Below are positions 1 to 11,050 of a stretch of DNA of 64,000 nt, one piece after another; position 1 is the stretch's first letter; every line of letters starts with the position of its first letter. Made by a program: the position numbers and the translations under genes. The DNA is from Niastella populi. GTDB lineage: Bacteria; Bacteroidota; Bacteroidia; Chitinophagales; Chitinophagaceae. Location: positions 62,001 to 126,000 of the forward strand of contig NZ_LWBP01000188.1 of assembly GCF_002078015.1 (NCBI RefSeq), given 5' to 3'. The notes beneath the pieces are model-generated. The model was not told the DNA's origin. It saw nothing but the letters and a program-made list of their open reading frames with translations, and searched no databases.

Positions 1-823
1 ACAGCCTGATGGTATGCATCATGTTCTTGGCGTCGTAGCCTTTGCCATGTTCAACATTGCCAAGGTAACGGTGCTCATTCCGCTTTTCTACCCATTCCCA
101 ATACTCTTTGTAATCTTTACAATAGGACGAATAGTTTTCGAGGTTAAAGAACAGGTACGCTTTTTCTTTTTCACCCTTCGGTATCGACGATAACGATACT
201 TCGTTGGCCAGTTCGCTGCTCATAATGCCCCTGTAACGGTGAAGGTTCTTTTCGTCATAGAACAGGGCATACAATCCTTTTGTGTGGGCGATGCTTACCA
301 GGCCGCATTGTTCCTGCACAAAATTGTTTTGCAACAGCCACTCCTTTAACGGTACCGATCGATAGCCCTGCATAATGAAACAAAAATCGAGCACCGACTT
401 CCGCACCTCGTCAACCGGGTTCACTATTTTCTTTTTAAAACCTCTCGCTTTTTTTATTTGGGTGAGGGCATACCCCCCAAACGTTTCTTTGCAAAGTTTC
501 GACAGGAACATGTTTACAGGCAGCATGTCCATTACCGGGTGCCGATAAAGGATGCAGTCATCGGGCGATGCCAGTACCTCCAGGATGTTGGGATTGTTCT
601 TTGTAAGCAATTCTACAAAACGTCCCAGCTCATAATACACTTCATCGCTGGTTTCATTACTGATCTGCGGAGTATAATCGAGGCCATAGAATTGCGCTTT
701 AGGCAAATAAAAAACTCCCTTCAGGTCTGTATCGGATGTGGCGGTATTTAGCCCGTATGCCTTACTGCCGCTTATGCATTCGAACAACAGCAATCCCTGC
801 CCCTTTATATCTTTAATGGTCAT
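1..823 (-). CDS. RlaP/COG3541-type nucleotidyltransferase (3' end cut by window edge)
   Basis: Predicted polymerase-beta-fold nucleotidyltransferase. It starts at the ATG complementary to 821-823 and stays open to the window edge (at least 274 residues). The N-terminus MTIKDIKGQG leads into the signature GSKAYGL...SDTDLKG (about residues 18-37). The GS and the two metal-binding aspartates of DxD are present, so the active site looks intact. Known family: YcgL/RlaP-like enzymes, often found in RNA-repair loci, though their in vivo substrate is unclear. Its start overlaps the stop of the upstream nucleotidyltransferase gene by 11 bp, which indicates translational coupling. Third gene of a minus-strand operon that begins below the tRNA-like RNA. 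The C-terminus and any following gene are outside the window. Confidence 0.85.
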   Translation of the reverse strand, partial: MTIKDIKGQGLLLFECISGSKAYGLNTATSDTDLKGVFYLPKAQFYGLDYTPQISNETSDEVYYELGRFVELLTKNNPNILEVLASPDDCILYRHPVMDMLPVNMFLSKLCKETFGGYALTQIKKARGFKKKIVNPVDEVRKSVLDFCFIMQGYRSVPLKEWLLQNNFVQEQCGLVSIAHTKGLYALFYDEKNLHRYRGIMSSELANEVSLSSIPKGEKEKAYLFFNLENYSSYCKDYKEYWEWVEKRNEHRYLGNVEHGKGYDAKNMMHTIRL

Positions 824-1574
824 ACTTTGTAATGGTGTTTACAAAGAACTCATCCAGCTTTTCTGCACCGAAAGGTTCTTTTTCAAGCGATTTCGATGCT
901 TCATCGATGCGGGCGAATTCCTGGTCGATATAAGTTTTCAATTCAGCATCTATCTGTATTATAAAGCCTTCTGCGGCGGTTGATTTTCTTGTTATCAACC
1001 TGCATACCTGTTCCTGTAAATGCGCCGGCAACAGTGTCATCAACGGGCCAATGGTCATAGGCGCAATTTGTTGTTTTTCGAGGCACCATCTGGCTGCCAG
1101 TAACGGCCTCAGAACATAGAACAGTTTTTTGATCGCAATCTCATTGCCATTGGCGATGCCGGCCAACGCACCCTGGGCTATCCCAAGGTAATGATGAATA
1201 TTCGAACGCCGGCCGAAATAATGCTGGCATAAAGCCCACAGTTCTTCTTTAAAACCTGGCTCCTGCCGGTATATGATGGGCGACTGCAGCCATTCGAACG
1301 GCGTAACGTTCGACTTTCGCGTCAGTTGCAGCACTTTTCGAAGGTCCCAGCCATACATATCGAGGTCGCCGTTGATGGCGAAATTCAGGTCATCGGCCCG
1401 TTCCATTACCGACAGATAGTATCGATAGGGCCGTACGTAAATAAACCGCACGTCGTAATCGCTGTCGGGTGAGGGAAATCCCCAGCCCCGGCTGCCCGAT
1501 TCGCAGGAGAACAGAATCTTTATGCCGTTCTCTTTTTCTACTTCCGCGAGCTTATTGGTTATCAGTTGTTTCAT
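813..1574 (-). CDS. RlaP/COG3541-type nucleotidyltransferase
   Basis: Second predicted polymerase-beta-fold nucleotidyltransferase, 253 aa. I chose the ATG at 1574 because it lies 1 bp after the stop of the preceding gene and starts with MKQLITNKLAEVEKENG; the longer reading only adds residues overlapping that gene. The active-site signature is SGSRGWGFPSPDSDYDVRFIY (about residues 26-46): GS followed by DxD. The C-terminal half is helical and resembles the substrate-facing domain of YcgL/RlaP proteins. It is a divergent paralogue of the downstream enzyme, so the operon makes two different nucleotidyltransferases. Family membership is clear from the motif; a role in RNA end-repair is inferred from the neighbouring tRNA-like RNA. 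Confidence 0.88.
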   Translation of the reverse strand: MKQLITNKLAEVEKENGIKILFSCESGSRGWGFPSPDSDYDVRFIYVRPYRYYLSVMERADDLNFAINGDLDMYGWDLRKVLQLTRKSNVTPFEWLQSPIIYRQEPGFKEELWALCQHYFGRRSNIHHYLGIAQGALAGIANGNEIAIKKLFYVLRPLLAARWCLEKQQIAPMTIGPLMTLLPAHLQEQVCRLITRKSTAAEGFIIQIDAELKTYIDQEFARIDEASKSLEKEPFGAEKLDEFFVNTITKYDH

Positions 1575-1575
1575 A

Positions 1576-1899
1576 TTAATCGGTTTTGAAAATGATCCTG
1601 CCCTGGTATTCGCCAAGGATCACTTTGCCATAAATTATTTTCGTCCAACCGTTTTCAAAGCCATGGTTATTGGCGATCAGAAATCCTTTGTTGGTGTCTT
1701 TCTTTATCACTTTATGGGCATCGATGTATCTGCCTTTTACTTTGCAGAAAACAATATCACCGATGTTGTAATCGGCCGCTTTTATAAAAGTGAGTAAACT
1801 TCCGTTTTTCAAAATGGGCAACATGGAGTTGCCGAATGCTTTTAATTTTCCTGTTCCGGCTACTTCGAGATCGATTTTGAGCCTTTCAAATTTGTTCAT
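1576..1899 (-). CDS. Small S24/S26-fold (LexA/signal-peptidase-like) protein
   Basis: A 107-aa protein made almost entirely of an S24/S26 peptidase-like fold. It contains GNSMLPIL (Ser25 in the GxSM position), an NGS turn, YNIGDIVFCK and then IDAHKVIKK. The AHK arrangement recalls the Ser/His dyad of S26B signal peptidases rather than the Ser/Lys pair of LexA. There is no DNA-binding HTH and no membrane segment, so it is neither a normal phage repressor nor a leader peptidase. The start at ATG 1899 (MNKFERLKID) follows an A-rich stretch. It is first in the operon, about 40 nt below the tRNA-like RNA and 1 bp before the nucleotidyltransferase gene. Its role is unknown; protease-based control of the locus is a guess. 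Confidence 0.75.
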   Translation of the reverse strand: MNKFERLKIDLEVAGTGKLKAFGNSMLPILKNGSLLTFIKAADYNIGDIVFCKVKGRYIDAHKVIKKDTNKGFLIANNHGFENGWTKIIYGKVILGEYQGRIIFKTD

Positions 1900-1937
1900 G
1901 TTCTTTTTAATAAAATGTATCTGTATCAATGATCAGT

Positions 1938-2130
1938 TCCCCTGGTGAGATTCGAACTCACATACTCATCGCTGAGCTGCATGGCTGTAAATACGCTTCC
2001 CTACTTTACTACGAGGTATTTTGGTGCACTGTAAACTCTACCCATAATTTCGCGCAGATATTACGGGATTATCCATACACGCTGCGGTCCCAATTTTACC
2101 GCAGGCTTTGCCTTTTAAGCTACAGGGGGA
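1938..2130 (-). ncRNA. tRNA-like structured RNA with long insertion
   Basis: Read on the minus strand, this holds the landmarks of a tRNA in order. An acceptor-like 5' strand CCCCCTG (2129-2123) is followed by TA, then a 4-bp D-arm GCTT/AAGC with loop AAAAGGCA. Next is an anticodon-like arm with a 7-bp stem CTGCGGT/ACCGCAG and a 9-nt loop. About 119 nt of extra structured sequence follow, including an 8-bp hairpin CCCGTAAT/ATTATGGG and a GCGA-capped stem CTCA/TGAG. The T-arm is perfect: GTGAG-TTCGAAT-CTCAC (1961-1945). The 3' strand CAGGGGA (1944-1938) pairs with the acceptor 5' strand over six bp. At 193 nt, with a giant variable region, it is not a normal tRNA. tRNA-like RNAs are known companions of bacterial RNA-repair loci; belonging to such a group is inference. 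Confidence 0.65.
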
Positions 2131-2191
2131 TAGAAATTAGATCCGCTGTTCTGCCGGCTGAGCTACCGCTTCGGTTCTCAAAAAACGGTAG
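2131..2191 (-). other. Second D-arm-like module and 5' hairpin upstream of the tRNA-like RNA
   Basis: On the minus strand a hairpin CTACCG...CGGTAG (2191-2186 with 2168-2163) runs into TAGCTCAGCCGG (2165-2154), a perfect match to the tRNA D-arm (box A) pattern. It is followed by GAAC closing an imperfect D-stem. Then GGAT/ATCC forms an anticodon-like arm with a 9-nt loop, and its 3' strand overlaps the acceptor strand of the downstream tRNA-like RNA. No matching T-arm or 3' acceptor strand exists for this copy. It may be the 5' part of the same transcript or a decayed tRNA-like half. Confidence 0.45.
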
Positions 2192-2389
2192 TTGAAAAAG
2201 TTTATTTGGCTTTGGAAGTAACTTATTCCTGACCGGCTTTTGATATAGCAAATATGCATATGCGACTACGCAGCGTATTTGCGCAAAGCGAATTTATTTT
2301 TTAGTTTTTTTTAATTATTTGGAAAACAGTTCAATACATCGGAAAATAAATGAAATGGATAAAAATGATGGCCAAACTGCGCAGTTGAG

Positions 2390-2420
2390 TTGCGTACTAA
2401 AATGCAGGATATTATTTTTA
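2390..2420 (+). promoter_or_regulatory. Possible promoter of the WYL regulator
   Basis: TTG at 2390-2392 and TATTTTTA at 2413-2420 are 20 bp apart, close to the Bacteroidetes TTTG-N19-TAnnTTTG pattern. It lies just upstream of the ATG at 2438. If it is real, the longer reading frames beginning at 2390 or 2402 are not translated. The -7 box lacks the final G, so support is modest. Confidence 0.3.
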
Positions 2421-2437
2421 CCGCACCAAAACCTTGT

Positions 2438-3457
2438 ATGTCTGTAAATAAACTGGCCCTGATTCGTTATAAGACCATCGACGACTGTTTGCGTAACAGG
2501 TATCGGAAATGGTCACTAGATGATCTTATTGAAAAAGTAGCGGATGTGCTGTACGACCTCGAAGGTATTACCACCGGCGTAAGCAAACGCACTATTCAGT
2601 CGGATATTCAGGTAATGCGTAGCGACAAACTGGGATACAATGCACCTATCATTGTGATCGACAAAAAGTTCTATTCCTACAGTGAGCCCGATTACAGTAT
2701 CACCAACGCCCCGGTAAATAAAGCAGATGTAGAGAAAATGAAAGAGATCGTTGGCGTGCTGAAGCAGTTCAACGGGTTTTCTTACTTTGATGAAATGAGC
2801 GAAATGATAGCCCGGCTCGAGAACAACCTGCACCGGACCACGCACCATGGGCGTAATTATATTCAGTTCGAGAATAACCAGTTATTGAAAGGGCTGCAGC
2901 ATATCAATCCCCTGTACCAGGCAATTCTAAATAAACGGTCTCTGCTGATAGAATACAAATCATTCAAGGCGGCCGATTCACAACAACTTATTTGTTATCC
3001 TTATCTGCTGAAGGAATACCGTAACCGGTGGTTCCTGATAGTGCGGGCTAAAAAGAAGCACTTGCTGATGACGCTGGCGCTCGACCGCATCATTGAATTT
3101 CAGGAACTGATCAAAGAGCCGTTTATAGATGATGATAAAATAGATTTCGATCATTATTTTAATGACCTCATAGGTGTAACAAAGAATGAGCATGAAAAGG
3201 CGCAACGGGTGGTGCTGTATATTGACAATTACAACGCACCATATGTGCTCACCAAACCGCTTCATCATTCGCAGCAATTATTGAAGGAGGAGGAGAAAGG
3301 CATCATCATAAGGATAGATGTGGTAGTGAATTTTGAGCTGGAACGCGAGATCCTCGGCTTTGGGGAATGCATGAAGGTACTGGCGCCGAAAGCGCTGGCA
3401 GCAAAGATCGCCAGGAGGTTAGGCAAGGCGTCGGAGGGTTATAAAGCCATTGAATGA
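2438..3457 (+). CDS. WYL-domain transcriptional regulator
   Basis: A 339-aa DNA-binding regulator. I start it at ATG 2438 (MSVNKLALIRYKTIDDC) because Bacteroidetes relatives typically begin with this NK..IRY element; in-frame starts also exist at TTG 2390 and ATG 2402. The N-terminal third is a winged helix (RKWSLDDLIEKV...GVSKRTIQSDIQVMR). The middle and C-terminus form the WYL ligand-binding domain (LLIEYKSF..., YPYLLKEYRNRWFLIVRA, LALDRI). WYL domains sense nucleic acid or nucleotide ligands and commonly regulate phage-defence and RNA-repair genes. It is divergent from the tRNA-like RNA and nucleotidyltransferase operon across a short AT-rich gap, so regulation of that operon is the natural inference. 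Confidence 0.88.
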   Translation: MSVNKLALIRYKTIDDCLRNRYRKWSLDDLIEKVADVLYDLEGITTGVSKRTIQSDIQVMRSDKLGYNAPIIVIDKKFYSYSEPDYSITNAPVNKADVEKMKEIVGVLKQFNGFSYFDEMSEMIARLENNLHRTTHHGRNYIQFENNQLLKGLQHINPLYQAILNKRSLLIEYKSFKAADSQQLICYPYLLKEYRNRWFLIVRAKKKHLLMTLALDRIIEFQELIKEPFIDDDKIDFDHYFNDLIGVTKNEHEKAQRVVLYIDNYNAPYVLTKPLHHSQQLLKEEEKGIIIRIDVVVNFELEREILGFGECMKVLAPKALAAKIARRLGKASEGYKAIE

Positions 3458-3498: not shown

Positions 3499-3745
3499 GC
3501 CTGTTCAATTGTACACCCGTTCAGTTGAATTTCCGCACTTTTCAATTTAGTTACCACACAGTTTAATTGAATTGCCGCACGATTCAATTGATTTGCCGCA
3601 CGGTTTAATTCAATTACCGCACGGTTCAATTGAATTGCCACACAGTTCAGTTTAATTAAAAGCACGATTAATTCAATTATAAGAACGTTCAATTGAATTC
3701 AATAGTGCGGGAATTGAATTGGATGTCTGTTCGGTTCAATTGTAT
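3499..3745. repeat. Degenerate 21-bp tandem repeat array
   Basis: About ten imperfect copies of a unit near GTTCAATTGAATTGCCGCAC follow each other. Variants swap CAATTGA for TAATTCA, CAGTTGA or CAATTTAG, and the right end decays. The 21-bp period keeps one minus-strand frame open (3483-3692) that reads as heptads of the type LNRAAIQ. It lies in the 640-bp gap between the WYL regulator and the next gene. I see no gene or promoter in the array. Confidence 0.75.
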
Positions 3746-6327: not shown

Positions 6328-9300
6328 ATGAGATCAGGTTCTTTCTTCAGGCAGCTACTGCTGCCCACTGTATTTGTGGTAAACGCACTTTTTCTCCTGT
6401 TGGGTTCACCTGCAATAACGATGGCCCAAACCAAAATGCCGGTAAAAATTGAAGGGCAGGTGCTCGATGATAAAGGCGTTCCGCTTTCGGGCGTAAACAT
6501 TACCATCAAAGGCGCCAGTTCGGGAGTGGCCACCGACAGGGATGGAAACTTCAGTTTGGAAACAACGGAAAACGCTACCCTGGTATTCTCCTCTATTGGC
6601 TACGTTACGCGCGAGATCGCGGTAAAGAACGCTACAAAAAACCTTTCCATAAAATTGCAGCCAGCCAGTAATACTTTAAACGATGTGGTAGTGGTTGGTT
6701 ATGGCACACAGCGAAAAGTAAATCTTACCGGTTCGGTTGAAAGTATCAATTCGGCCCGCCTCGCCGACAGGCCGGTAACCCAATTATCAGCCGCATTACA
6801 GGGCATCGCTCCCGGTGTTACCGTAACAACCACCACCGGCGCTCCCGGCAGTGATGCCGGCACCATCCGCATTCGCGGTATCGGCACATTGAACAATGCC
6901 AGCGCGCTTGTTTTGATCGACGGCATTGAAGGTAACATGAACGAGCTCGACCCGAACATGATCGAAAGCATTTCGGTGCTGAAAGACGCCGCCTCTTCGG
7001 CCATTTACGGGTCACGTGCCGCCAATGGCGTTTTGCTCGTTACCACAAAAAGAGCGAAAGGGGAAAAGCTTACCATTACCTACAATGGTTATATGGGTAA
7101 ACAACAGGCTACCAATCTCCCCGATAAAGTAGATGCGCTCGACCATATGCGCCTGTTGAACTTAGCTTATAAAAATACCGGTTTAACGCCCGTTTTTACC
7201 GATGCCCAAATTGAAAAGTATAGCCAGGAAATGTTGAACAACCCCGATCTGTATCCCAATACCGACTGGCAAAAGGAAGTGCTTACGGGTTCAGGAATGA
7301 TGCAGAACCATTCGGTAGGCATCAGCGGTTCGTCGGGAAAACTGCGTTTCCTTACTTCTCTCGGCTACCTGAAACAGGATGGTATAATAAAAACATCTTC
7401 CTACGAACGATATACCCTGCGGAACAATGCCGATGTAAAGTTCAGCGACAAGGTGAGCATGAAGATGGACCTGCAGTTGATCAACCGCACCACAACCCAG
7501 CCGGGCCGCGGTCTTGAGAATGTTTTTTCCCAGATGAACCGTATACCCGCCATTCAGTTGGGCCGGCTCACCAATGGCAAATGGGGCGAAGGCTGGAATG
7601 GTAACAACCCCATTGCCATGGTTGAAGACGGCGGGTTCAATAAAGAAAATACACTGAGCCTGCAGGGAAATTTACAGTTGAGCTACCGGCCTGTTGACTG
7701 GTTGACGGCCGAACTGGTAGCCGCTCCGCGTTTTGTAAATGTATATGGCGATAAATTTATAAAAGCCGTTACTACGTATACCGGTGCAGGTTCCATTGCA
7801 TTTACCCAGCCTGCAAAAACTGAAAAGACCAACACCAATGAACGCTCCTGGTATGGTAATTACCGCGCCAGTTTTACGGCCGATAAAGTTTTTGGCGAAC
7901 ACAGCGTAAAATGGTTGCTGGGTGCATCGAAAGAAACTTCTCATTATTCAGATTTCAGCGCTTTCCGCGATAATTACCTGTTCCCCGATTACACCGTGAT
8001 TGAAGCCGGGGATAAAAGTAACCAGCAAACAACAGGCAGTGCAACCGAATGGGCTTTGCAAAGTTTTTTCAGCCGGATCAATTATGACTACAAGGGAAAA
8101 TATTTGTTTGAGGCCAATGGCCGCTACGATGGCACATCCCGTTTTGGCAAGGGCCATAAATGGGGTTTCTTTCCTTCTTTCTCGGCCGGCTGGCGCATCA
8201 GCGAAGAAGCGTTTATGGATAACCTGCGCGGGGTGCTCACCAACCTGAAGTTCCGCGCTTCGTGGGGGCAACTGGGTAACCAGCTCATCGGTAACAACTA
8301 CAATTTCGCATCCAACATATCTTTAGGTTCCTATGCCATAAACAACCGGGTTGTTTCCATCGGTGCATTAACCGATATGAACAATGCGCTGATGACCTGG
8401 GAATCTACCGACATGACCAATGTGGGGGTGGATGTAACGTTGTTCAATAACCTGTCCATCACAGCCGACTGGTACCGGAAGATCACGAACGACATCCTGC
8501 TGATTTTAGATATTCCTTTGTACATCGGTTTGAACGCACCTTATCAGAACGCAGGTAAAGTAAGTAATGTTGGCTGGGAGTTAGGCATCAATTACAATGG
8601 CCATGCCGGAAAAGATTTCACCTACGGCATCAACTTCAATATTTCCGATGTAAAGAATAAAGTGCTCGATCTGAAAGGCATCAGCACCACGGGGCTCAGG
8701 CAGAACCGCGAAGGCTATTCCATCGGTTCTATCTATGCGCTGGAAGCCGATGGGTATTTTCAATCGCAGGACGAAATTAATGACCACCCTGCACAGGTTG
8801 GCGTGCTGGCGCCCGGCGATATCAGGTATGTAAACCAGAATAAAGACAATATCATCAACAACGAAGATTATAAAATAATCGGTGGAACCATTCCGCGTTA
8901 CACCTATGGCCTTAACCTGAATGCAGCCTACAAAGGGTTTAGCTTTAATGCCTTTTTGCAGGGCGTAGGCAAGGCCAATGGATATTTATACTCCTATGCC
9001 ATTCAGCCATTTTATAGCGGTGGCACAGCGCATGAACAACATAAGGATTACTGGACCGCAGAAAATCCCAACGCACTATTTCCCCGCCTTACCTATAACG
9101 ACGGCGGCAACAACTACCTGCCTTCCAGCTTCTGGATGAAGAACGCGGCTTATCTGCGCCTGAAGAATATTCAACTGGGTTACACCTTGCCTATCTCACT
9201 TATCAGCAAATGGGGAATGAACGCCGTGAAAGTATATGTAGGCGGACAAAACCTGCTTACCCGCGATAAATTCTGGAAAGGATACGATGTAGAAACGCCG

Positions 9301-9366
9301 GTAGGTACAGGTAATGCCTACCCGCAGGTAAAAGTGTATACCGTTGGCCTGGATATCAAATTCTAA
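6328..9366 (+). CDS. susC-like: SusC/RagA-family TonB-linked outer-membrane transporter
   Basis: A 1012-aa outer-membrane importer. The signal peptide ends near ITMAQ (residue 35). A carboxypeptidase-regulatory-like domain follows (EGQVLDDKGVPLSGVNITIKG split over about 42-62, to about 110). The plug begins at LNDVVVVGYGTQRK (about 119) and the 22-strand barrel runs to the terminal aromatic IKF. Known role: with the SusD lipoprotein it binds and imports oligomeric nutrients using TonB energy. It is separated by 19 bp from the SusD gene. It heads a cluster with phosphoesterase, symporter, oxidoreductase and EEP genes. The cluster has no sigma/anti-sigma pair or hybrid two-component regulator. 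Substrate unknown. Confidence 0.95.
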   Translation: MRSGSFFRQLLLPTVFVVNALFLLLGSPAITMAQTKMPVKIEGQVLDDKGVPLSGVNITIKGASSGVATDRDGNFSLETTENATLVFSSIGYVTREIAVKNATKNLSIKLQPASNTLNDVVVVGYGTQRKVNLTGSVESINSARLADRPVTQLSAALQGIAPGVTVTTTTGAPGSDAGTIRIRGIGTLNNASALVLIDGIEGNMNELDPNMIESISVLKDAASSAIYGSRAANGVLLVTTKRAKGEKLTITYNGYMGKQQATNLPDKVDALDHMRLLNLAYKNTGLTPVFTDAQIEKYSQEMLNNPDLYPNTDWQKEVLTGSGMMQNHSVGISGSSGKLRFLTSLGYLKQDGIIKTSSYERYTLRNNADVKFSDKVSMKMDLQLINRTTTQPGRGLENVFSQMNRIPAIQLGRLTNGKWGEGWNGNNPIAMVEDGGFNKENTLSLQGNLQLSYRPVDWLTAELVAAPRFVNVYGDKFIKAVTTYTGAGSIAFTQPAKTEKTNTNERSWYGNYRASFTADKVFGEHSVKWLLGASKETSHYSDFSAFRDNYLFPDYTVIEAGDKSNQQTTGSATEWALQSFFSRINYDYKGKYLFEANGRYDGTSRFGKGHKWGFFPSFSAGWRISEEAFMDNLRGVLTNLKFRASWGQLGNQLIGNNYNFASNISLGSYAINNRVVSIGALTDMNNALMTWESTDMTNVGVDVTLFNNLSITADWYRKITNDILLILDIPLYIGLNAPYQNAGKVSNVGWELGINYNGHAGKDFTYGINFNISDVKNKVLDLKGISTTGLRQNREGYSIGSIYALEADGYFQSQDEINDHPAQVGVLAPGDIRYVNQNKDNIINNEDYKIIGGTIPRYTYGLNLNAAYKGFSFNAFLQGVGKANGYLYSYAIQPFYSGGTAHEQHKDYWTAENPNALFPRLTYNDGGNNYLPSSFWMKNAAYLRLKNIQLGYTLPISLISKWGMNAVKVYVGGQNLLTRDKFWKGYDVETPVGTGNAYPQVKVYTVGLDIKF

Positions 9367-9385
9367 ACATCCTTATTTACAAATT

Positions 9386-11050
9386 ATGAAACGTACTACA
9401 ACTATTATATTGTTTGCCGGCATAGCCGCAGGAATTACGGCCTGTAACAAATCGATCGATAAGCTGCCGCTCGATAGTCCGTCTTCTGAATCATTTTACA
9501 AAACAGCAGCGGAAGTCGATATGGGCATACTGGGTTGTTATAAATCGCTGAACTGGGAATTGAAATCGAACCGGCCCTGGCCCGTTATGCTCGATAATGC
9601 TACCGATGTAAGCTGGAACCGGAGCGCGCATGCGGTGCAGGAACTGGGCAACGGTACCGCTACCAGTGCCAATAGCTCCTCGGAAATTGCCTGGACGCAG
9701 TGTTATAAATCAATTGGCCGTGCCAACTTTTTACTGGAGAATATCCACCGCTCAAAAGAGCTGATCAGCGACGCTTACTATAAGCAGGTGATCGCCGAAG
9801 CCCGCTGGATAAGAGCGTTCAATTACATGTTGCTTGCCGAATTATTTGGTAACGTACCGCTGGTAACAAAAGTGTTAACGCTCGAAGACCCTATTCTGTC
9901 GAGAACGGCAAAAGCGGAAGTAGTAAGTTTTATCTTAAAGGAACTCGATGAGGCTACGCCCGACCTGCCGGCATCGAATGTTGGCATAACAGGCAGGGCT
10001 ACCAGGGTAGCAGCCCATGCATTAAAGGCAAGGGTGGCCCTGTATAATGCACAATGGCAAACGGCGGCCGATGCGGCCAATGCGGCAAGAGCCATTGGTA
10101 AATACGGGTTGTATGATAATTATGGCAACCTGTTCAATTATACCGGTGAAACCAGCAAAGAACAGATCTTCTCCCTGCAGTTCATGAAAGGCATTATCGT
10201 ACATTCGAACAGTAATTTCCTTTCATCACGTTTGGCAGGCGGTGTGGCAAATGAAGTGCCTACCCAGCAAATGATCGATTCATACGAGTGCACCGATGGT
10301 CTTACCATCGATAAATCGCCGCTGTACGATCCATCAAAACCTTTTGAGAACCGCGATCCCCGGCTGGCTATGAGCATCGCGCTGCCGGGCAGTATATATT
10401 ACGGCTTTCAGTTTGAAACGCACCCCGACAGTACAAAGGTGTGGAACTACAACGTAACGCCCGCAGCCCGGGTGCCCAATACCGACGCTACCAATGTATA
10501 CGCCACTTTCACCGGTTATATGTGGCGTAAATGGACCGATATAAAAGACAGGACCGACGACGAGAACTGTGAAGGCGATATTGTGCTCTTTCGTTATGCA
10601 GAACTGCTGCTGACCTATGCGGAAGCAAAAATTGAAAACAACCAGATCGATGAATCGGTTTATAAAGCATTGGATTCGGTTCGTGTAAGAGCGGGCATGC
10701 CGGTAGTACCGCGTGGACAAACACAGGCTTATTTGCGCTCGCTGGTACGCCGCGAACGTAAAATAGAACTGGCCAATGAAGGCCTGCGGCTGTTCGATAT
10801 CCGCCGCTGGAAAATTGCAGAAAAAGTAATGAAAGGCACCAGATATGGCCGCAGCAGAACAACCTGGCTTACCGCAGCGCCAACACTCGATGAAAACAGT
10901 ACGCCCGATTACAGCAACGTATCAAATGCAGGTGTTATGCGGGTCATAGAGAATATGGTGTTCAACCCGGATCGCGATTATCTGTGGCCCATTCCTACTT
11001 CCGAAATTCTGACCACGAAAGGATTAATAACACAAAACGATAACTGGTAG
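9386..11050 (+). CDS. susD-like: SusD/RagB-family nutrient-binding lipoprotein
   Basis: A 554-aa surface lipoprotein. I start it at ATG 9386 because MKRTTTIILFAGIAAGITAC gives a proper lipobox (Cys20); a longer reading overlaps the SusC gene and spoils the signal peptide. The N-terminal SusD-like segment has the conserved LPLDSPSSESFYKTAAEVD, the centre has TPR-type helices (ARWIRAFNYMLLAELFG), and the C-terminal RagB/SusD part ends with the typical RDYLWPIPTSEIL. Partner of the SusC transporter just upstream: it caps the barrel and captures ligand at the cell surface. Confidence 0.95.
   Translation: MKRTTTIILFAGIAAGITACNKSIDKLPLDSPSSESFYKTAAEVDMGILGCYKSLNWELKSNRPWPVMLDNATDVSWNRSAHAVQELGNGTATSANSSSEIAWTQCYKSIGRANFLLENIHRSKELISDAYYKQVIAEARWIRAFNYMLLAELFGNVPLVTKVLTLEDPILSRTAKAEVVSFILKELDEATPDLPASNVGITGRATRVAAHALKARVALYNAQWQTAADAANAARAIGKYGLYDNYGNLFNYTGETSKEQIFSLQFMKGIIVHSNSNFLSSRLAGGVANEVPTQQMIDSYECTDGLTIDKSPLYDPSKPFENRDPRLAMSIALPGSIYYGFQFETHPDSTKVWNYNVTPAARVPNTDATNVYATFTGYMWRKWTDIKDRTDDENCEGDIVLFRYAELLLTYAEAKIENNQIDESVYKALDSVRVRAGMPVVPRGQTQAYLRSLVRRERKIELANEGLRLFDIRRWKIAEKVMKGTRYGRSRTTWLTAAPTLDENSTPDYSNVSNAGVMRVIENMVFNPDRDYLWPIPTSEILTTKGLITQNDNW

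Follow-up and report, generated by a model that had tools for sequence, protein, structure and literature searches.

Organization of the Locus

The DNA considered here, called the window throughout, is a stretch of 64,000 nucleotides from the 8.6-Mb genome of Niastella populi (contig NZ_LWBP01000188.1, positions 62,001–126,000), and coordinates below are window positions unless another locus is named. At its left edge lie genes for two RlaP-type nucleotidyltransferases and a small S24/S26-fold protein, with a tRNA-like RNA, which we call RNA-B, upstream of them on the same strand and, on the opposite strand, the gene for a regulator with WYL and WCX domains. We propose, with a probability of about 0.7, that the locus is the regulator-bearing end of a WYL-controlled tRNA-damage regulon whose parts are dispersed. 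The features of the locus are as follows.

1–823 (open reading frame (ORF) 2–823), minus strand: RlaP2 nucleotidyltransferase (Pfam PF10127, E = 8.9e-19 for the part in the window)
813–1574, minus strand (ATG at 1574, end at 813): RlaP1 nucleotidyltransferase with GS...DxD (Pfam PF10127, E = 4.7e-71, 813–1577 submitted)
1576–1899, minus strand: small S24/S26-fold protein, 107 aa (Pfam PF00717, E = 2.5e-6)
1935–2130, minus strand: RNA-B, a complete tRNA-like RNA of 196 nt (covariance model score 225.6 bits; two-sided changes in 40 of 53 pairs)
1985–2040, minus strand: conserved core of the RNA-B insert, strands 2019–2040 and 1985–2005 flanking a variable hairpin (15 of 22 and 17 of 21 columns invariant in 15 sequences)
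2132–2173, minus strand: 5' stump of RNA-A, a second tRNA-like RNA (from alignment with intact RNA-A of relatives)
2249–2256, minus strand: −7-like promoter element of the RNA/RlaP operon, CATATTTG, counterpart of GCATCTTTGT
2267–2285, no strand assigned: putative WYL box 1, RNA side, TACGCAGCGTATTTGCGCA (one of six genome-wide matches)
2378–2396, no strand assigned: putative WYL box 2, WYL side, TGCGCAGTTGAGTTGCGTA (one of six genome-wide matches)
2438–3457, plus strand: divergent WYL-WCX transcription regulator, 339 aa (Pfam WYL, E = 1.5e-10, and WCX, E = 1.8e-10, on 2390–3457)

The initial annotation of the window, made from its letters alone, had described tandem GS...DxD nucleotidyltransferases overlapping by 11 bp, an S24/S26 protein one base from the RlaP1 start codon, a tRNA-like RNA upstream of it and a divergent WYL regulator, and the ORFs and Pfam matches agree with this gene layout. 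GS...DxD is kept in both RlaP1 and RlaP2, as read by eye, and both proteins score above the curated PF10127 cut-off, which places them in the RlaP family. The expected continuation of the set beyond the left edge is also present: RlaP2 is completed there to 352 aa (L003:15765–16823; PF10127, E = 9.8e-21 on the complete protein), and the next gene encodes a DUF2459 protein, which adjoins the set in all seven same-genus relatives whose WYL locus was retrieved (G001, G002, G004–G007, G009). The regulator contains both the WYL and the WCX domain and has one match in its own genome at E ≤ 0.001. The RlaPs are less conserved than the stand-alone S24/S26 protein, which has an identity of 86–88% within the genus and 75–76% across three other genera; Ser25 and His62 of this small protein, invariant in an alignment of eight sequences, suggest an active protease of the signal-peptidase type, and no membrane segment was seen by eye. 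Imperfect short repeats of the TTCAATTGAATTGCCGCACG type are visible by eye at positions 3500–3720, 3' of the WYL gene.

Structure and Conservation of RNA-B

Scans of the window alone gave no RNA, either by ARAGORN or by Rfam at gathering thresholds. In a permissive Rfam search, RNA-B scored 18 bits against the tRNA model RF00005, under its gathering score of 29, and matched no other family up to an E-value of 5, YrlA (RF02553) included. The folding energy of the single sequence was also ordinary (z = −0.95, equalled or bettered by 39 of 200 shuffles), so that without comparison the RNA is indistinguishable from chance.

Comparison gives a different picture. An element of about 195 nt lies directly 5' of the S24 gene with an identity of 86–92% in four genomes of the genus and of 78% in a second genus, the window copy being 91–92% identical to those of three relatives. 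A covariance model, R1, was built from seven RNA-B copies, the window copy among them. In an alignment of 15 copies, which was fitted to R1 and is thus biased toward it (seven of the 15 had built the model), two-sided changes are seen in 40 of 53 pairs, and 94.8% of cells pair, compared with 76.2% after shuffling; none of 500 shuffles reached this value, and slid structures gave at most 44.8%. RNAalifold, applied to the same alignment, found two-sided changes in 37 of 46 pairs. Judged by this comparative evidence, RNA-B is a real RNA. The tRNA-like RNA of the initial annotation therefore stands as a covarying structure, but not as one element, since it comprises the complete RNA-B (1935–2130) and the stump of RNA-A (about 2132–2173).

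The arms of RNA-B follow the order of a tRNA: an acceptor of 6 bp, a D arm, an anticodon-like arm, a structured insert of about 110–120 nt, a T arm with a UUCGA loop, and the closing acceptor strand. Invariant columns number 32 of 43 in the insert strands, 7 of 16 in the D arm, 6 of 7 in the T loop and 0 of 12 in the acceptor strands; in the variable parts of the insert there are none (0 of 27 in the hairpin and 0 of 13 in the loop). These counts indicate that sequence itself is conserved in the elbow parts and the insert core, whereas in the stems only the pairing is. By model score RNA-B is neither YrlA nor a tRNA.

Distribution of RNA-B and Its Neighbours

Two samples of genomes were searched with R1, and the resulting counts are lower bounds, as six candidates per genome were scored. 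In the order sample (396 genomes), 46 genomes match at E ≤ 1e-6; seven of them, N. populi included, reach at least 144 bits, and the other 39 score at most 40 bits and are taken by us, without a check of each one, to be tRNAs, like the weak local matches. In the phylum sample (395 genomes), four genomes, again with N. populi, match at E ≤ 1e-10. RNA-B occurs in six families of the phylum. The window copy had no blastn match in 72,556 plasmid and 50,697 phage records, and the idea that RNA-B is mobile cargo was rejected on this result.

The gene orders around RNA-B in other genomes are the following.

L017: WYL / TROVE – YrlA-like RNAs – RNA-B – S24 – RlaP1 – RlaP2 – RtcB
L089: WYL / TROVE – RNA-B – S24 – T4 Rnl1-type RNA ligase – nucleotidyltransferase (just below the RlaP cut-off) – PNKP kinase/phosphatase (HAD phosphatase)
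L087: TROVE – RNA-B – other ORFs – RlaP1 – RlaP2 – other ORFs – RNA ligase – P-loop kinase
L085: RNA-B – 11 tRNAs – unnamed protein – RNase H-like – AAA – SPFH – RtcB
L086: TROVE – RNA-B – 12 tRNAs – RtcB (contig ends within RtcB)
L091: WYL / TROVE – two ORFs – RNA-B – RtcB
L092: 14 tRNAs – RNase H-like – RNA-B – SPFH
L046: WYL / tRNAs – RNA-B – tRNA – SPFH – RtcB
L090 (a weaker case): WYL beside RNA-B, no repair enzyme near, an S24-like match 9 kb away
L088: box 27 bp upstream of RNA-B; no queried repair gene in the roughly 10 kb to each side

The connection with RNA repair, suggested in the initial annotation, is thus found in the relatives, which carry RtcB, TROVE/Ro60, or an RNA ligase with a kinase (and a phosphatase in one case) in the same stretch as RNA-B. 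The combination of WYL regulator, RNA-B, S24, RlaP1 and RlaP2 was found as a full set in six of the 18 genomes with an RlaP1 match (99 genomes searched).

The presence of TROVE and RNA-B in the same stretch of L017, L086, L087, L089, L091 and L209 is what would be expected if RNA-B were a Y RNA, the partner of Ro60/TROVE, and a relic in the N. populi genome. However, this genome has no TROVE match, and yet its RNA-B has kept the 91–92% identity to copies from three relatives as well as the covarying structure; in L085, L046 and L092, RNA-B is present and TROVE is not in the stretch seen; and RNA-B has no YrlA match and differs from YrlA in arm order. We consider this explanation unlikely.

The position of RNA-B directly 5' of S24 in the window, in five relatives and in L089 would also suit a cis-acting leader of the S24–RlaP operon, that is, an attenuator or a tRNA-responsive switch and not a free RNA. 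Such a role appears improbable in view of L085, L086, L046, L092 and L088, where RNA-B has no adjacent S24, and of the 5' and 3' ends of RNA-B, which close into their own tRNA-like acceptor stem. L088, with RNA-B and a box and without repair genes, argues for a free RNA acting in trans.

A Palindromic Box Shared with a Spare tRNA Array

A 49-bp stretch 5' of the RNA recurs once in the N. populi genome, at C224 (84% identical), inside a tRNA array. The array has 10 Rfam tRNA matches above the gathering score, all on one strand, followed by genes for AAA, RNase H-like, unnamed, SPFH/slipin, DinB-like and RtcB proteins; the RtcB match of this locus (L004) has E = 2.1e-78, and two boxes lie upstream. 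The box is a palindrome, TRCGCA-N7-TGCGYA (19 bp), derived by comparing orthologous intergenic regions; it superseded our first guess at the operator, a wider palindrome of 35 bp that had matched both loci.

The 8.6-Mb genome contains six box sites, compared with one for the reversed-pattern control: two in the WYL/RNA-B intergenic region, two in the C224 array, one inside a HAD-type-looking ORF and one at the start of a TonB receptor-looking ORF, the last two identified by eye. In 10 same-genus genomes we counted 50 sites against 7 control sites; by coordinates, 13 fall in WYL intergenic regions, 10 in tRNA arrays, 7 in TROVE loci and 20 elsewhere. The tRNA-array region has two boxes in five of the eight genomes with an RtcB locus.

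Four further box places were retrieved as a test, three of them with pairs 111–114 bp apart, as at the WYL loci (G001, G002, G005), and one with a single site (G004), chosen because its sequence also occurs at known sites. At all four, the next gene is TROVE/Ro60, 46–158 bp away and 67–70% identical to the TROVE protein of L017. An ARAGORN tRNA or a short RNA-A-like match (22–23 nt) lies behind TROVE at three of the four places, and no tRNA-like RNA was detected behind it at the G002 place. The initial annotation had supposed a self-contained system; instead, the operator-like palindrome is common to the window and a second locus with a tRNA array and RtcB, and some relatives add a third with TROVE.

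In 37 loci with a box on the cargo side, a GCATCTTTGT element occupies positions 29–38 from the box start. It resembles the Bacteroidota −7 element, so that the box would occupy the −33 region. This geometry suits either a repressor or an activator that would replace the −33 contact.

The array tRNAs are largely redundant with respect to the housekeeping set. ARAGORN recognizes nine of them, and eight of their anticodons are also found among the 46 other distinct tRNAs of the genome; the ninth, Glu(ttc), was not found elsewhere in the draft genome. For these eight anticodons, the global alignment of the array tRNA with its housekeeping counterpart scores 0.42–0.63 per base. For the 12 anticodons with at least four array copies in seven genomes, 96–100% of consensus pairs are kept and 1–8 pairs each vary on both sides, in structures taken from the same alignments, which favours high pair retention. 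We read the array tRNAs as diverged extra tRNAs, probably selected for tRNA shape, that may be replacements or decoys.

A second tRNA cluster was observed at L130 (G000:C134:60001-72000), where positions 6788–7432 and 7695–9758 hold six genes (Leu, Leu, Cys, Ser, Ser, Tyr) just beyond an EF-G-like gene, as judged by eye, and on the same strand. Its anticodons complement those of the C224 array; the WYL box was not found at this cluster.

WYL-Centred Loci

A profile search of genome contigs with the WYL alignment confirmed 585 loci, the best 80 of which were analysed; the query was drawn from loci of this system, so that the sample represents close kin and not WYL proteins at large. These loci come from Chitinophaga, Pedobacter, Sphingobacterium, Taibaiella, Myroides, Flavobacterium, Empedobacter, Pontibacter, Rufibacter, Dyadobacter and others, as well as from metagenome-assembled genomes (MAGs). 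At least one part of the set lies within 9 kb on the upstream side of the WYL gene, on either strand, in 69 of the 80. The parts found there are RtcB (45 loci), SPFH (37), RlaP1 and RlaP2 (20 each, always together), TROVE (13), the RING protein described below (12), tRNA (11), RNA-A (10), S24 (4), RNA ligase (3), PNKP (3) and AAA (2), while a similar length on the downstream side gave tRNA (7), RtcB (6), the unnamed protein (2) and AAA (1). T-arm motifs show the same asymmetry, with 149 on the cargo strand versus 13 on the other strand upstream, and 37 and 15, respectively, downstream.

A box was found at most 400 bp upstream of the WYL gene in 70 of the 80 loci, with at least two boxes in 33, and the other 1.33 Mb contained 12 sites. 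Such clustering beside WYL genes in many genera makes it very unlikely that the palindrome is the site of a sigma factor or of some other regulator, with the WYL gene a mere neighbour. The fixed distance of the box from the −7-like element and the G001 genome, with a WYL gene and an array without a box, would fit another regulator, and binding of the box by the WYL protein is itself something that we infer; on the other side, G003, which has no WYL or RlaP match, has a tRNA array without a box.

RNA-A and the RING-Type Protein

RNA-A is intact in G002, G005, G006, G007 and G009, where it lies on the side nearer to the regulator. In all five, a gene of about 745 codons follows 3' of RNA-A, between it and S24; at this place the window lacks the gene and the rest of RNA-A, and G001 has a similar stump. 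The RNA-A of L011 scores 51 bits as a tRNA, its anticodon loop interrupted by an insertion of about 95 nt, and the RNA-A insert folds into a long conserved hairpin. Although this insertion and the RtcB gene in the second box-bearing locus would fit intron-bearing precursor tRNAs spliced by the RtcB of the regulon, we regard this explanation of RNA-A and RNA-B as most improbable, because the insert strands of RNA-B, with 32 invariant core columns of 43, are among its regions of strongest conservation, as is the T loop (6 of 7), unlike a discarded intron, the RNA-B insert sits after the anticodon-like arm, and that of RNA-A forms its long conserved hairpin.

The L011 copy of the 745-codon gene (6631–8859) matches the NCBIfam model RING_SCO0854 with E = 7.3e-38 and 130 bits, under the model cut-off of 600. 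That the protein is a diverged Ro60 was considered but not supported: hhalign gave a probability of 0.2 between the RING-type (A6) and TROVE (A7) alignments, from which one of 18 RING-type copies (L142, truncated) and two of 18 TROVE copies (L156, L206) had been dropped. Protein Data Bank (PDB) sequence searches with RlaP1 and with the RING-type protein alignment returned nothing useful.

The RING_SCO0854-like protein, aligned from L011 and 16 relatives, often has RNA-A upstream. It never shares a stretch with TROVE among the 80 WYL loci, and G002 and G005 carry both in separate box-bearing loci. The locus of relative G009 (L043, G009:C25) keeps WYL, RNA-A, the RING-like protein, S24 and DUF2459, and neither RlaP nor RNA-B was found in it, which indicates that the cargo is modular.

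Proposed Model of the Regulon

Our model draws on gene content, the distribution of the box, promoter geometry, the structure and recurrence of RNA-B, and the redundancy and divergence of the array tRNAs, all read from sequence. The WYL protein, an expected sensor of nucleic acids, would bind TRCGCA-N7-TGCGYA and through it control, by activation or derepression, the window operon RNA-B – S24 – RlaP1 – RlaP2 and, at the second locus, the 10 diverged spare tRNAs together with the AAA, RNase H-like, slipin (SPFH), DinB-like and RtcB genes. In some relatives, its control would extend to a Ro60/TROVE gene, which tRNA-like RNAs follow in most cases. Upon cleavage of tRNAs, the fragments or other products of damage would switch the WYL protein; RtcB would then rejoin broken tRNAs, the RlaP pair would adjust or rebuild RNA ends, and the array would provide replacement or decoy tRNAs. 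RNA-B would act in trans as a tRNA mimic, serving either as a decoy or, through its conserved insert, as a docking scaffold for repair proteins.

It should be noted that a number of observations weigh against this model. The two other boxes of the N. populi genome have no repair gene within about 3 kb, and 20 of the 50 genus sites, including these two, which were inspected, and one in the WYL-less G003, lie outside the three kinds of loci; some of the remaining 18 may be further members of the regulon and some may be chance matches. G001 and G007 both carry the WYL gene and have an RtcB locus without a box, in G007 also with no tRNA detected. No RNA ligase or kinase was seen at the two N. populi loci, and no TROVE match was obtained in this genome. 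Among the 80 WYL-centred loci, 11 have no part of the set upstream (five of these with less than 2.8 kb of contig there), six of the 69 positive loci have only the RING protein or RNA-A and three have only SPFH, and ARAGORN finds at least three tRNAs upstream in just two loci and downstream in three. Finally, RNA-B itself is rare, being present in 7 of 396 order genomes and 4 of 395 phylum genomes, both lower bounds, and in 3 of the 80 WYL-centred loci. The last count implies that the link between regulator and cargo is general and that RNA-B is one of several cargos.

A more specific role for RNA-B, which we hold to be rather doubtful, is that of a sentinel. As an unpermuted tRNA mimic, it would be attacked like a tRNA by anticodon nucleases or other RNA-damaging agents, and its intact or cut state would be read through the conserved insert, so that it would both decoy the attacker and report to the WYL protein or the repair enzymes.

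Relation to Known Systems

The closest parallels are found in two described systems. The Salmonella rsr-yrlBA-rtcBA RNA repair operon with RtcR is outlined as combining RtcB, a Ro60-type protein, a tRNA-mimicking RNA and a divergent damage-responsive regulator (PMC7790460). The set described here shares RtcB (in the box-bearing set), a Ro60-type protein in relatives, a tRNA-mimicking RNA and a divergently encoded regulator. It differs in that the adjoining regulator is WYL-WCX and not the CARF/sigma-54 protein RtcR, that RNA-B is not YrlA by model score, that the RlaP pair, S24 and the tRNA array are added, that the parts are spread over two or three loci, and that N. populi has no TROVE gene match.

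The TrcR regulon of Anabaena PCC 7120 is outlined as comprising a silent trn operon of 26 tRNAs, rtcB, slipin and AAA (PMC10272220), and the C224 locus resembles it in joining a spare tRNA array with rtcB, slipin and AAA ATPase genes. TrcR itself belongs to the ribbon-helix-helix repressors and has a consensus site of 8 bp, whereas here the regulator adjoining the box is WYL-WCX and the site is a 19-bp palindrome; the present set also includes tRNA-like RNAs and RlaP enzymes. By its adjoining regulator, the window system is not placed with either RtcR or TrcR.

RNA-B resembles YrlA (RF02553) in that a tRNA-like module with D and T arms is joined to another structured module. In YrlA, however, the T arm precedes the D arm and a loop closes the acceptor, whereas RNA-B keeps the arm order of a tRNA, has its two ends in the acceptor stem and does not match the YrlA model. 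The YrlA-like RNAs of the L017 cluster reach at best E = 1.3e-9 and 49 bits, under the gathering score of 69.

Clusters of RlaP, RNA ligase and PNKP were reportedly described by Burroughs and Aravind in 2016. The window shares with them an RlaP-family enzyme, and L087 and L089 add a T4 Rnl1-type ligase and a kinase; unlike these clusters, the window has two RlaPs with no ligase or kinase beside them, and RtcB sits in the second box-bearing locus.

WYL domains are predicted, in the outline of the 2014 CARF/WYL paper (PMC4012209), to take nucleotide or nucleic-acid ligands. PafBC and DriD are summarized as WYL-domain transcription factors that respond to damaged nucleic acids and bind single-stranded DNA. 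By analogy with them we lean toward an activator role for the WYL protein; their cargo, so summarized, consists of DNA-damage response genes, whereas here it consists of RNA-repair genes. When nine proteins of the set were submitted to PADLOC, the WYL protein matched two WYL signalling models and a Cas3c model, the AAA protein had two weak matches, and the other seven had none, so that the set was not identified as a known anti-phage defence system. At the level of listings and abstracts, we found no published description of this WYL regulon or of RNA-B, and some of the gene neighbourhood may have been published before.

Significance

For responses to tRNA damage in Bacteroidota, the model predicts three things: a binding site, a regulon and a new family of RNAs. 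It would tie RtcB repair, Y-like RNAs and silent spare tRNA arrays, which are known separately, to one switch. It also makes testable the role of tRNA-mimicking RNAs in repair operons and the signal that a WYL regulator may read when RNA, and not DNA, is damaged.

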